Below the pieces are notes generated by a model. That model was not told where the DNA came from. It saw only the letters and a list, made by a program, of their open reading frames with translations, and made no database searches. DNA of 50,225 nucleotides from an uncultured Mucilaginibacter sp. (lineage in GTDB: Bacteria; Bacteroidota; Bacteroidia; Sphingobacteriales; Sphingobacteriaceae), in NCBI GenBank assembly GCA_903863845.1, contig CAIPDP010000012.1, positions 1 to 50,225 on the forward strand, in the 5' to 3' direction. Below, piece by piece: positions 14,620 to 20,100 of the stretch. Positions within the stretch are counted from its first letter, which is position 1; each line of letters begins with the position of its first letter. A program made the position numbers and the translations under genes.

Positions 14620-15383
14620 TCGAATTTCCGCAGATAGGCTGGTTTTATTAACGCTCCATACCATATACTGGGTATCTTATCCATACTGAACCAATAATAG
14701 CCCGGTGCATTTTGCAGTACCTGAATGTTTTGAGCCGGCATAAAACTTTGCGCCAGCAAGAATTGCTTTTGATGCTGTGAATTCTCAACTACCTCCATTA
14801 CTATAAAACAATGACCGGGCGAGCCACCATGAATAAATACATCACCGGCTTTTAGTTCCGTTGGATCGCTAACCGGCTTCAATTCCTTTTCAAGCGACAA
14901 AGTGCCAGCATAGGCAAATACCAGTTGCATATAATTCATAAAAGTATTGTAACCATAATCTTTTTTCGCCTTTAATACCCAATGATCATTGCTGTAACGA
15001 TAGCCCTCAGCATAATGTATATAATCGCATTTAAAGCCACTTTCGAAATGAAAAGCGATCTCACCGTACCGCTGCTGATGCCAAAGGTATTCACCCCGCA
15101 ACCGCATAACCGCGTCGGCACATTGCTGAAGGTCTTCATGTCCTATGCTTATATCTACAACAGCGGCTGTTTCGGCGTCGGTTGCGGCAATAGCGCCTCT
15201 GTAGGTTAAAGTATGCGTGCCGGTAGGTTTGAGCGGCAGACTTTGAAGATAGGCCCCAAAACTGCCCGGCTGTACCGCAATCTGTTGATAGCCTTCAGGT
15301 ATTTTAAAGCGGGTTAATACGTTGTCGGGCGCAAGTGATGAGGTGATGAACAAGACAGTAAAGAAGACGATCGCGATTTTCAT
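14616..15383 (-). CDS. DUF4846 domain-containing secreted protein
   Basis: A 255-residue protein with a short signal peptide (MKIAIVFFTVLFITSSLA). The family signatures are clear: CADAVMRLRGEYLW, YNTFMNYMQLVFAYAGT, AGDVFIHGGSPGHCFIVM and LLAQSFMPAQNIQVL. DUF4846 is found mostly in Bacteroidota and has no assigned function; the conserved G-H-C and the NlpC-like layout hint at a hydrolase-like fold, but this is only inference. Start chosen at the ATG at 15383, because the eight residues upstream break the signal peptide. Confidence 0.88.
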   Translation of the reverse strand: MKIAIVFFTVLFITSSLAPDNVLTRFKIPEGYQQIAVQPGSFGAYLQSLPLKPTGTHTLTYRGAIAATDAETAAVVDISIGHEDLQQCADAVMRLRGEYLWHQQRYGEIAFHFESGFKCDYIHYAEGYRYSNDHWVLKAKKDYGYNTFMNYMQLVFAYAGTLSLEKELKPVSDPTELKAGDVFIHGGSPGHCFIVMEVVENSQHQKQFLLAQSFMPAQNIQVLQNAPGYYWFSMDKIPSIWYGALIKPAYLRKFD

Positions 15384-17157: not shown

Positions 17158-20100
17158 TCACATGTTCCTCCTATACTGCCCGCCTACCTCATACAAAGCA
17201 TGCGTGATCTGCCCCAGTGAGCAGTATTTACACACCTCCATCAGTGTTTCAAAAATATTTTCACCGGCGATCGCGGTATGTTGTAACTTTTCAAGCAATG
17301 CAGATGCTTTATCTTCATTCCTGCTTTGAAATGCTGCCAGGGCTGTAATCTGGAATTGCTTTTCTTCTTCAGTAGCCCGAATGACTTCTGACGGGGTAAT
17401 GGTTGGCGAGCCTTTTTTATTAAGGAAAGTGTTTACCCCTACTATAGGGAACTCGCCGGTATGTTTCAGTGTCTCGTAGTAAAGCGACTCCTCCTGTATT
17501 TTGCCACGCTGATACATGGTTTCCATGGCACCCAGAACGCCTCCACGATCGTTAATGCGTTTGAATTCAGCTAAAACTGCATTCTCTACCAGGTCGGTTA
17601 GTTCTTCAATGATGAAAGCGCCCTGTATCGGGTTCTCATTTTTAGCCAGACCAAGTTCCCGGTTGATGATCAATTGTATCGCCATGGCCCTGCGAACAGA
17701 TTCCTCTGTAGGTGTGGTGATCGCCTCGTCATAAGCATTGGTATGAAGCGAGTTGCAATTATCATAAATTGCATACAAAGCCTGCAGCGTAGTGCGGATA
17801 TCGTTAAAATCAATTTCTTGTGCATGTAATGAGCGCCCGCTGGTTTGGATATGGTATTTTAGTTTTTGCGAACGGTCGTTTCCTTTGTATTTATTTTTGA
17901 TGGCTTTGGCCCATACTCTGCGCGCAACGCGACCGATCACCGAATATTCCGGATCGAGGCCATTGGAGAAGAAGAATGACAGGTTAGGTGCAAAATCGTC
18001 AATGTGCATGCCCCGGCTCAGGTAATACTCCACATAGGTAAATCCATTTGACAGTGTAAATGCGAGCTGCGAAATAGGATTAGCCCCCGCCTCGGCAATA
18101 TGATAGCCCGAAATGGATACCGAATAAAAGTTACGTACTTTTTGGTCGATGAAATACTGCTGAACATCACCCATCATCCGTAAGGCAAATTCCGTCGAGA
18201 AGATACAGGTGTTTTGCGCCTGGTCCTCTTTCAATATATCGGCCTGCACAGTACCGCGGACTGTAGAAAGTGCATGAGCTTTTATTTTTTCGTAAACATC
18301 AGCAGGTAAAACCTGGTCGCCGGTAAGACCGAGTAGAAGGAGACCTAAGCCGTTGTTGCCTTTAGGTAGCGACGCCTCACCTAAATCCTCTCCAAAGGAG
18401 AGGACTTTTTCTCCCTTCTCCTTTGGTAGTATGGCCTCACCTAAATCCTCTCCAAAGGAGAGGACTTTTTCTCCCCTCTCCTTTGGAGAGGGGCTGGGGG
18501 TGAGGCTGGATTTCCTGGAATTGACAAAATCCGGCTGTTTGTCAAGTCTTTCCTTTATTGCCTGAATTACTTTTTGGGGATTATTTATTACTTCCTCATT
18601 TGTAAAACGGATCACGTCAAACCCCTCATTGTTCAGTACTATTGTTCTAATCGTATCTTCCTCTGTAGTTAATTGATGATAACCACCATCAACTTCGATA
18701 ACAAGGGCTTTGGGTATACAAACAAAGTCTGCTATGTAGCCATCAATAGCATGTTGTCGCCTGATTTTATAGCCTGTTTGGCTGTTTCTCAGTAACTGCC
18801 ATAAAATATTTTCAGCTTCAGTAGGATTTTGCCTATTTGCAACAGCATTATCTTTAAGTGTTTTCCAAATCTTAGTGTCTGCCGTTTGATAGGCGTAAGG
18901 GCGGGGTTTCCGGTCCGGGGCCTCACCTAAATCCTCTCCAAAGGAGAGGACTTCAACTCCCTCTCCTTTGGAGAGGGTCGGGTTGAGGCGATAAAAAGGC
19001 CGTTCCAACCCCTTATCATCATATACCTCTTTAAACTTCGCCTCCACTAAATGCTCTAAATGATGCTCTTTGATGTATTTCTCGCATTGCTGGTCGATGG
19101 CAGCATTCATGAAATAGCCAAGCAACATGGGTGCCGGACCATTGATGGTCATGGATACTGAAGTTGAGGGACTGCATAGATCAAATCCCGAATAAAGCTT
19201 TTTGGCATCATCAAGGGTAGCGATACTAACGCCTGAGTTACCGATCTTACCATAAATATCAGGCCGGGTATGCGGGTCCTCGCCATAAAGCGTAACCGAA
19301 TCAAATGCCGTTGATAAACGGTGTGCAGGTTGACCCAGTGATACGTAGTGGAAACGTTTGTTAGTGCGCTCAGGTCCCCCTTCGCCGGCAAACATTCGGG
19401 TTGGGTCCTCGCCTTCACGTTTGATCGGGAATACCCCCGCCGCGTACGGAAATTCTCCCGGCAAATTTTCGGTCAGCAGCCAGCGCAGGATATCTCCCCA
19501 GGCTTCATACTTTGGCAGCGAGATCTTGGGTATCTTTAATTGCGACAGCGAAGTATAAAAGAGCGGCTGTTTGATTTCTTTATCACGAACTTTATAGATA
19601 AAGTTTTCTGCTTTATAGGTTTTTACTGTATCCGGCCATTCAGCTAAAAGTCGTTTGCATTCGGGATGCAGGTGTGCTTCCAGGTGTTTGTAAATATCCT
19701 TGAGCGCCAGTTCGGCGGATTTATCCTTTGAAGTCCGTTCAATTAAGACTTCAATTGTTCCCTGTATCTGGTACAGTTGCTGTGCAATTTTGCACTGCTC
19801 ATTTACCCATTCGTCGTAGGTTTTACTGCTTTCAACAATTTCGGCCAGGTACCTTATCCTGTCAGGGGGGATGATGAATTGTTTTTCAGATTCGCCGGAA
19901 TGTATATTGCGTGCACCTGCTGCACCCTCATAAAAATCAACACCCGTTTTTGCATTGATGGTTTTCATCAATGCCTCAAACAAGGTATTCATCCCGGGGT
20001 CGTTGAATTGTGATGCCATCGTGCCGAAAACCGGCAGGTCTTCGTCCCTGGCCTCAAATAACTGGTGATTGCGCTTATATTGCTTGCGTACATCGCGGAT

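Follow-up and report, generated by a model that had tools for sequence, protein, structure and literature searches.

The window analysed here is a 50,225-nt stretch of DNA from an uncultured Mucilaginibacter sp. (GenBank assembly GCA_903863845.1, contig CAIPDP010000012.1), and its icmF gene, encoding a fused isobutyryl-CoA mutase, carries the confirmed, real in-frame insertion of a DUF559 nuclease. The insert is probably a selfish, homing-type DUF559 nuclease gene that lies between palindromes and is translated as an unspliced passenger of its host protein. Elements of this class are widespread in Bacteroidota and are very likely both selfish and, on an evolutionary time scale, mobile. A first-pass annotation, made from the letters of the window, had proposed a mobile nuclease surviving as a passenger domain, and this is still the best reading, because this nuclease lineage is found again, likewise in frame, in numerous unrelated proteins.

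The icmF gene, on the minus strand (21141 to 17158), is a single open frame of 1327 codons, and about 205 residues of its product (719-923) are foreign to the mutase, as the annotation had noticed and as both the frame and the comparison with empty sites bear out. In the Pfam order of the protein, B12-binding/MeaB lies on one side of DUF559 (residues 761-866, E 6.3e-31) and MM_CoA_mutase on the other. In the alignment with the solved IcmF 4xc6, the insert falls in a gap between chain residues 724 and 733; the location first given was a loop between RPFY and GNNGLGL. The translation of the insert contains no Met and no stop codon, also as first read; as a rule for such inserts, lack of Met was rejected, being seen in 47 of 96 internal nested domains vs 13 of 56 others. 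An intein and an intron-borne nuclease had both been argued against from the start: no intein (Hint) domain is among the six Pfam matches of the window's IcmF at E ≤ 0.001, and the insert is not an intron because it is in frame throughout. The flanking palindromic repeats were recovered as CCTCTCCnnnGGAGAGG, present five times and carrying tails like TTTAGGTGAGGC; they form inverted pairs at either end of the nuclease. The CCTCTCCnnnGGAGAGG motif occurs 17 times in the 3.98-Mb window genome, five of these copies flanking the icmF insert, and its reversed control pattern 0 times.

Alleles of the site were assessed by searching the C-terminal 398 aa of IcmF against 201 genomes of the family (E ≤ 1e-100), of which 108 matched. 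In the window's genus, icmF was found in 23 of 35 genomes, with 14 frames of 1284-1409 aa and nine of 1136-1197 aa; outside the genus, none of 85 icmF frames reaches 1200 aa, three of these (468-994 aa) looking cut. The site is occupied in 14 of the 23 genus genomes, empty in eight (seven by site sequence, G095 by length only) and repeat-only in one, namely G192, which carries palindromes without a nuclease. The seven empty sites read RPxY..LPxGNNG or GNSG. Empty sites in relatives, for which the annotation had recommended a search, occur in IcmFs that are 90-92% identical to that of the window over the 398 aa, and one relative has palindromes alone at the site. The condition that the annotation had set for its own refutation, the domain being present at this place in every close IcmF, therefore does not hold. 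That the insert is an artefact of assembly or annotation is exceedingly improbable, because the long frame is common to 14 of the 23 genus genomes, including single-contig assemblies; no point in favour of an artefact was found.

Phylogenetically, the nuclease belongs to a clade of 46 copies (support 98/91) with nested members only and zero free-standing ones, the hosts being leucyl-tRNA synthetase (LeuRS, 23), IcmF (14), TruB (3), helicase (3), MetH (2) and a methylase (1). The fusions to HisF and HisH, and two to transporters, stand outside this clade, among free-standing copies. In all 46 copies E777, D805, E816, D818, D829 and R845 are invariant, and position 822 is H in 45. Of the acidic residues that had been listed as intact, E777, D805, E816 and D818 therefore stand, together with H822 and D829, but E775 varies (the relatives read TEAE or TDAE). 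The ratio of nonsynonymous to synonymous substitution (dN/dS) is 0.04-0.15 in 18 of 20 nuclease pairs and dS is infinite in the other two, in a set where some members belong to more than one pair and several dS values approach saturation; the nuclease is under purifying selection. An AlphaFold2 (AF2) model of the nuclease (icmF residues 738-880) has a pLDDT of 88, while a model of a 451-aa IcmF fragment from six sequences (pLDDT 47) was not used. The closest solved structures by sequence profile are 3hrl (E 3.9e-30) and the homing endonuclease I-Bth0305I, 3r3p (E 1.4e-5), and these are also the closest by fold (target TM 0.87 for 3hrl; target TM 0.80, E 5.8e-4 for 3r3p). Several other identities were rejected: Vsr as the nearest structure (rank 12 only in the fold search, E 0.2); a defence system (none of the PADLOC defence models matches the nuclease, and PHROG gave four weak matches only, E 1e-6 to 1e-3); and a phage or plasmid carrier (38 plasmid and 2 phage records in tblastn, all <60% identity, and 16 relatives in IMG/VR, the best at 47%).

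DUF559 nucleases are nested in many other proteins, as the annotation had suggested might be found. PF04480 matches occur in 126 of the 201 family genomes, with at least 43 matches, in at least 39 genomes, inside open frames of at least 500 aa; DUF559 in short frames (~120-190 aa) is widespread in the family as well. A survey of named genomes was confined to the best 80 loci and used a query built from nested copies, which is a bias; 60 of the 80 lie in frames >200 aa, among them L245 without a recognisable host, and 79 titles are Bacteroidota, the other being an Ignavibacteria metagenome-assembled genome (short frame). Internal hosts include IcmF, LeuRS (two sites, A and B), IleRS, MetRS, MetH, UvrA, RecG, RecJ, a ligase-associated DEXH helicase, acetyl-CoA synthetase (Acs), adenine deaminase, DegT aminotransferase, CoA-transferase III, a type ISP methylase, GH31 and the C-terminal part of TruB. 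N-terminal fusions were found with HisF, HisH, guanylate kinase, IspF (YgbB), alpha-2-macroglobulin and a peptide-transporter binding protein, the last assigned by reading only. Nested nucleases were confirmed by Pfam or NCBIfam in 23 proteins, i.e., that of the window and 22 fetched ones (20 checked with Pfam and 10 with NCBIfam, eight shared). NCBIfam curated cut-offs are passed by LeuRS (two proteins), IleRS, MetRS, RecG, RecJ, the DEXH helicase, Acs, UvrA and TruB, so these nuclease-bearing hosts still look like working enzymes. Across the phylum, LeuRS was matched in 113 of 148 genomes; 37 rows belong to the same class, ten of them of at least 1059 aa, vs at most 988 aa in all 76 rows of other classes, and the two long frames that were opened (G013, G035) both contain the nuclease. 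The motif just 3' of the insertion has a conservation percentile of 90 for LeuRS A, 98 for LeuRS B, 89 for HisF, 85 for the helicase and 26 for IcmF. Insertion just 5' of a highly conserved motif fails as a general rule at IcmF, where nearly all of the protein is conserved. Two side observations concern these hosts. A single LeuRS frame of 1240 aa (L070, G176:C58:153500-164000) carries two DUF559 nucleases, at sites A and B. The HisF N-terminal fusions (L035, L036, L038, L041, L048, L056-L058, L069, L088-L090, L092, L093) carry a DUF559 close to free-standing ones, with an internal stop in two copies (G091, G126).

The histories of element and host differ at several sites. For LeuRS site A, 41 copies were found and 37 rows kept after removal of two duplicates and two rows with short host parts (15 Sphingobacteriales, 8 Bacteroidales, 6 Flavobacteriales, 5 Cytophagales, 3 unplaced). 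The host tree unites eight rows of genus g18, with a support of 83 that is not strong; this grouping is rejected by the nuclease data in the approximately unbiased (AU) test (p 0.004), and the nuclease grouping is rejected by the host (p 3e-84), the test groups having been named after the trees were seen and the nuclease alignment being short. Two g18 rows have nucleases with other palindromes, nearest to copies of other genera; different nuclease lineages occupy one LeuRS site within one genus. Synonymous divergence (pS) was compared by Fisher test in ten chosen pairs (uncorrected; all p <0.05). It is lower in the nuclease than in the host in L195/L202 (0.09 vs 0.63, p 2e-18), icmF L039/L050 (0.03 vs 0.22, p 2e-5), L064/L073 (0.27 vs 0.58), RecJ L192/L194 (0.30 vs 0.63), L047/L063 (0.19 vs 0.37) and L069/L048 (0.28 vs 0.47), and higher in L073/L078 (0.46 vs 0.18, p 1e-5), L024/L027, L070/L033 and L055/L044. 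Weaker codon selection might be a source of the higher values; markedly lower nuclease divergence is hard to explain by codon selection, because other pairs show no slow nuclease. In L195/L202, pS per 20 codons runs 0.67, 0.32, 0.13, then 0-0.26 in the nuclease, then 0.26, 0.20, 0.31, 0.43, 0.52 and 0.65, i.e., a zone of low divergence is centred on the nuclease and fades over ~80 host codons 3', with no comparable dip in four control pairs. Over 40 host codons per side, flank pS in this pair is 0.25 on the 3' side vs 0.63 for the host, and 0.70 on the 5' side; it is 0.40 and 0.39 on the two sides of L064/L073 vs 0.63, and 0.05 on the 5' side of L039/L050 vs 0.23. For the most part the nested element keeps to fixed sites, where some replacement occurs.

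These data also bear on the view that the nuclease is a domesticated domain, inherited vertically, which gives the host enzyme a new function such as DNA binding or regulation. Purifying selection on the nuclease and the clustering of copies by host fit such a view, but the many unrelated hosts, the empty and repeat-only alleles in close relatives, the disagreement between nuclease and host divergence in both directions and the two nucleases of the L070 LeuRS speak against it, and domestication is considered quite improbable.

The palindromes accompany the nested nucleases at most sites. Of 91 internal nested copies, 60 have a perfect 7-bp C/T-rich stem no more than 200 nt away on each side (72 have one on the left, 71 on the right), vs 2 of 180 control host windows, and the inverted-repeat score exceeds 12 at 44 of the best 80 named loci vs 0 of 80 shuffled. 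The stems fall in reading-frame phases 0/1/2 in numbers of 5/35/32 (left) and 14/52/5 (right), i.e., in all three phases, unevenly, and therefore no single peptide is kept. Five consensus strings lack stops in 3 to 6 of the 6 frames, so the palindromes could settle in coding DNA in several frames. Palindromes of types A, B and C were counted in the 201 genomes, HisF-type flanks (CCCCCTnnAGGGGG) lying outside this count. Type A is present in 73 genomes, and at least five copies beyond the flanks occur in 18 of 24 genomes with a strict-A-flanked nested nuclease vs 24 of 177 others, or, in the genus only, in 16 of 16 vs 7 of 19; in this comparison 24 genomes were judged by hand and kinship is uncorrected. 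Type C (both strands, flanks included) reaches 30 in G133, 56 in G128, 35 in G138 and 33 in G102, the four genomes whose LeuRS nucleases have type C flanks (G133, G128 and G138 are close relatives); among the other 197 genomes one has at least 30 (G162, 38), followed by G123 (12), G199 (11) and G026 (8), the rest having at most 7. Six g18 relatives whose LeuRS nuclease has A-like stems (strict A or CCTTCTCC/GGAGAAGG) contain 0-1 copies of type C and 4-38 of type A. Type B is highest in G136 (40), G111 (34) and G121 (23); G111 and G136 have nested copies bordered by B-type stems on one side or both, and none was seen among the DUF559 loci scanned in G121. The window genome contains 17 type A, 0 type B and 0 type C palindromes, and its LeuRS site B (L010, G000:C44:1-2185) holds a repeat-only in-frame insert where other genomes have the nuclease; 30 sequences of this site were classified as 8 with nuclease, 3 repeat-only, 17 short and 2 other. 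The palindromes are dispersed repeat families, the type of which tends to match the resident nuclease, with exceptions.

It was also considered that the palindromes are ordinary repetitive extragenic palindromes (REPs) moved by a REP-associated Y1 transposase (RAYT), with DUF559 as mere cargo between two repeats. Y1 transposase genes are frequent in the genus, occurring in 91 of 100 genomes, with five matches in the window genome, and 13 of 29 RAYT loci (L131, L145, L134 and ten more) have inverted repeats of their own above the control maximum, without a type A palindrome. RAYT as the mover of type A palindromes was rejected, as none of 45 RAYT loci (0/30 and 0/15; stretches of 1.6-3.4 kb) carries type A, a count that leaves types B and C aside. 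By comparison, left-right inverted repeats exceed the shuffled maximum at 24 of 30 DUF559 loci (a 31st, with short flanks, was dropped), G111 and G171 have palindromes and no Y1 match, and repeat type is associated with nuclease type. A RAYT origin is thus regarded as unlikely.

Several observations weigh against a selfish homing-type passenger nuclease with palindromes of its own. Nuclease copies cluster by host (12 changes vs 43.9 shuffled), which means that inheritance is for the most part vertical or tied to the site. Occupancy of icmF, mapped on a 25-row tree of the host gene, is scattered and needs at least seven changes; the tree is weak, and 104 of 500 shuffles need no more. Sixteen disjoint same-site pairs have a host pS <0.65; in 7 of them nuclease divergence is below that of the host and in 9 above it; recent transfer is therefore clear only in some pairs, and a nuclease younger than its host is refuted as a rule. 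In L047/L063 and RecJ L192/L194, the flanks are more diverged than the rest of the host and only the element is similar. Signs of transfer with co-conversion of flanks, a feature of homing endonucleases, are thus mixed: one side in L195/L202, both in L064/L073, in part L039/L050, and neither of the two pairs just named. A perfect stem was not detected on one or both sides in 31 of the 91 nested copies. Fifteen genomes were rechecked (33 DUF559 matches, 30 with a scanned locus and 3 without). Just two copies there have strict A flanks, the one in the IcmF of G162 and the one in the helicase of G136. No matching nuclease was seen among the loci examined in eleven type A-rich genomes, namely G192 (71), G014 (64), G026 (26), G089 (25), G177 (19), G199 (18), G002 (17), G062 (16), G034 (12), G103 (12) and G082 (10), which also fits a RAYT origin of the repeats, or in the type C-rich G162 (38) and G123 (12); G199 and G123, rich in types A and C, respectively, have no DUF559 match at all. 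The idea that every repeat-rich genome has a matching nuclease is refuted by this recheck. A matched nuclease predicts matched repeats and the converse fails; the repeat-rich genomes without a nuclease may hold relics left after nuclease loss, or their repeats may have another mover.

The element-only exchange in RecJ L192/L194 is also consistent with ordinary homologous or repeat-repeat recombination moving the cassette, with the flanking repeats as possible recombination ends and the nuclease kept for another reason, e.g., defence or repair; the abundance of DUF559 in short frames points the same way. The nested clade, however, is tied to fixed sites of conserved genes, its nuclease is related to a homing endonuclease and the PADLOC defence models do not match it, and we hold this account to be improbable.

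Under the preferred reading, that of a selfish passenger nuclease, the element would consist of a homing-type (EDxHD-like) DUF559 nuclease gene between REP-like palindromes, two inverted palindromes forming a REPIN-like unit. It sits in a loop of a conserved protein, in frame, and would be kept there as a passenger domain, using the expression signals of the host gene and the host's own value to the cell. The nuclease would cut an empty allele at or next to the site, and repair from the occupied copy would install the element, with flanking host sequence or alone; a new site would be founded rarely. Loss of the nuclease would leave repeat-only scars, and the repeats would persist or spread as short non-autonomous copies, presumably with a role for the nuclease. 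Cleavage, homing and the absence of splicing at the protein level are predicted from comparative data, as is the mobility of the element. Whether these elements form a separate class of mobile elements, i.e., permanent unspliced passenger nucleases in essential proteins that cut empty alleles and drive coding palindromes as their non-autonomous derivatives, is more tentative, and we put it at somewhat below an even chance.

The element resembles several known systems in part. A DUF559 gene has been assigned to the EDxHD family (PMC9403480, citing Taylor 2011). Homing endonucleases are described as residing in introns, inteins or free-standing genes and as needing self-splicing partners to enter highly conserved genes (PMC3943268). 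Like the EDxHD homing endonuclease I-Bth0305I, the nuclease has a homologous catalytic domain with conserved acidic and His residues, and, as with EDxHD homing endonucleases, its icmF site has occupied and empty alleles; unlike them, it shares one frame with its host, with no intron, intein or free gene, and appears from its sequence to stay in the host protein. It shares with homing endonuclease-bearing inteins an in-frame nuclease in a conserved protein, but has no Hint domain. Rickettsia palindromic elements (RPEs) are palindromic DNA of about 150 bp, in frame in many unrelated genes, and the excerpt consulted mentions no nuclease or mobilising enzyme (PMC10969869, citing Ogata 2000, 2002). 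By that partial description, rather than by repeat sequence, the present elements are alike in placing palindromic DNA in frame in unrelated proteins, and differ in that their palindromes flank a nuclease gene and belong to another phylum, repeat-only copies existing too. To our knowledge, no mover of in-frame palindromic elements has been known. In REPIN/RAYT systems, short GC-rich palindromes are dispersed through the genome as inverted pairs and also border an associated gene. The dispersed palindromes seen here, some in inverted pairs, and the flanked associated gene are similar, whereas the associated enzyme is a DUF559 nuclease instead of a Y1 transposase, and copies lie inside reading frames. 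What appears new is the combination of a homing-type nuclease with coding palindromes without a sign of splicing; no title or abstract start describing nested DUF559 was found in the literature, with most subscription journals outside the coverage.

If active, the element would be a gene drive hidden as a protein domain and a candidate enzyme for in-frame palindromic elements, and it would explain odd extra domains of housekeeping enzymes. Across a phylum, tRNA synthetases, repair enzymes and B12 enzymes harbour relatives of a homing endonuclease without a sign of a splicing element, and the system can be tested directly, since related soil bacteria have both occupied and empty alleles.

Features of icmF and its insert in the window (positions in nucleotides of the whole stretch)
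Feature	Position	Strand	Basis
icmF, fused isobutyryl-CoA mutase, host frame 1327 aa	17158..21141	-	open reading frame and Pfam; homologue of solved IcmF 4xc6
In-frame insert, ~205 codons	18373..18987	-	absent in empty-site homologues G121, G180, G062, G186, G189, G072, G177
DUF559 (EDxHD/Vsr-like) nuclease domain	18544..18861	-	PF04480 E 2.7e-32 on DNA, 6.3e-31 on protein; AF2 model
Active-site residues (putative), whole span	18655..18813	-	positions computed from translation; role inferred from fold family
E777	18811-18813	-	invariant in 46 nested-clade copies
D805	18727-18729	-	invariant in 46 nested-clade copies
E816	18694-18696	-	invariant in 46 nested-clade copies
D818	18688-18690	-	invariant in 46 nested-clade copies
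H822	18676-18678	-	H in 45/46 nested-clade copies
D829	18655-18657	-	invariant in 46 nested-clade copies
Palindrome pair 5' of nuclease (coding strand)	18908..18990		stems 18933-18949, 18960-18976
Palindrome cluster 3' of nuclease (coding strand)	18374..18506		stems 18387-18403, 18447-18463, 18475-18491

A known RNA identity was rejected: Rfam gave 17 matches at E ≤ 1 (best E 4.8e-6), none at the family gathering score. Elsewhere in the window genome, a short DUF559/Vsr-like match (L002 1501-1647, G000:C53), possibly a shortened vsr, lies beside an apparent DNA methylase gene, and an in-frame palindrome (L015, G000:C174) is present in a protein read as AlaRS. Lastly, three tandem palindromes 84 bp apart (L016, L017; G000:C200, about 14798-14982) share an open frame with an apparent NADH dehydrogenase ferredoxin-like subunit.

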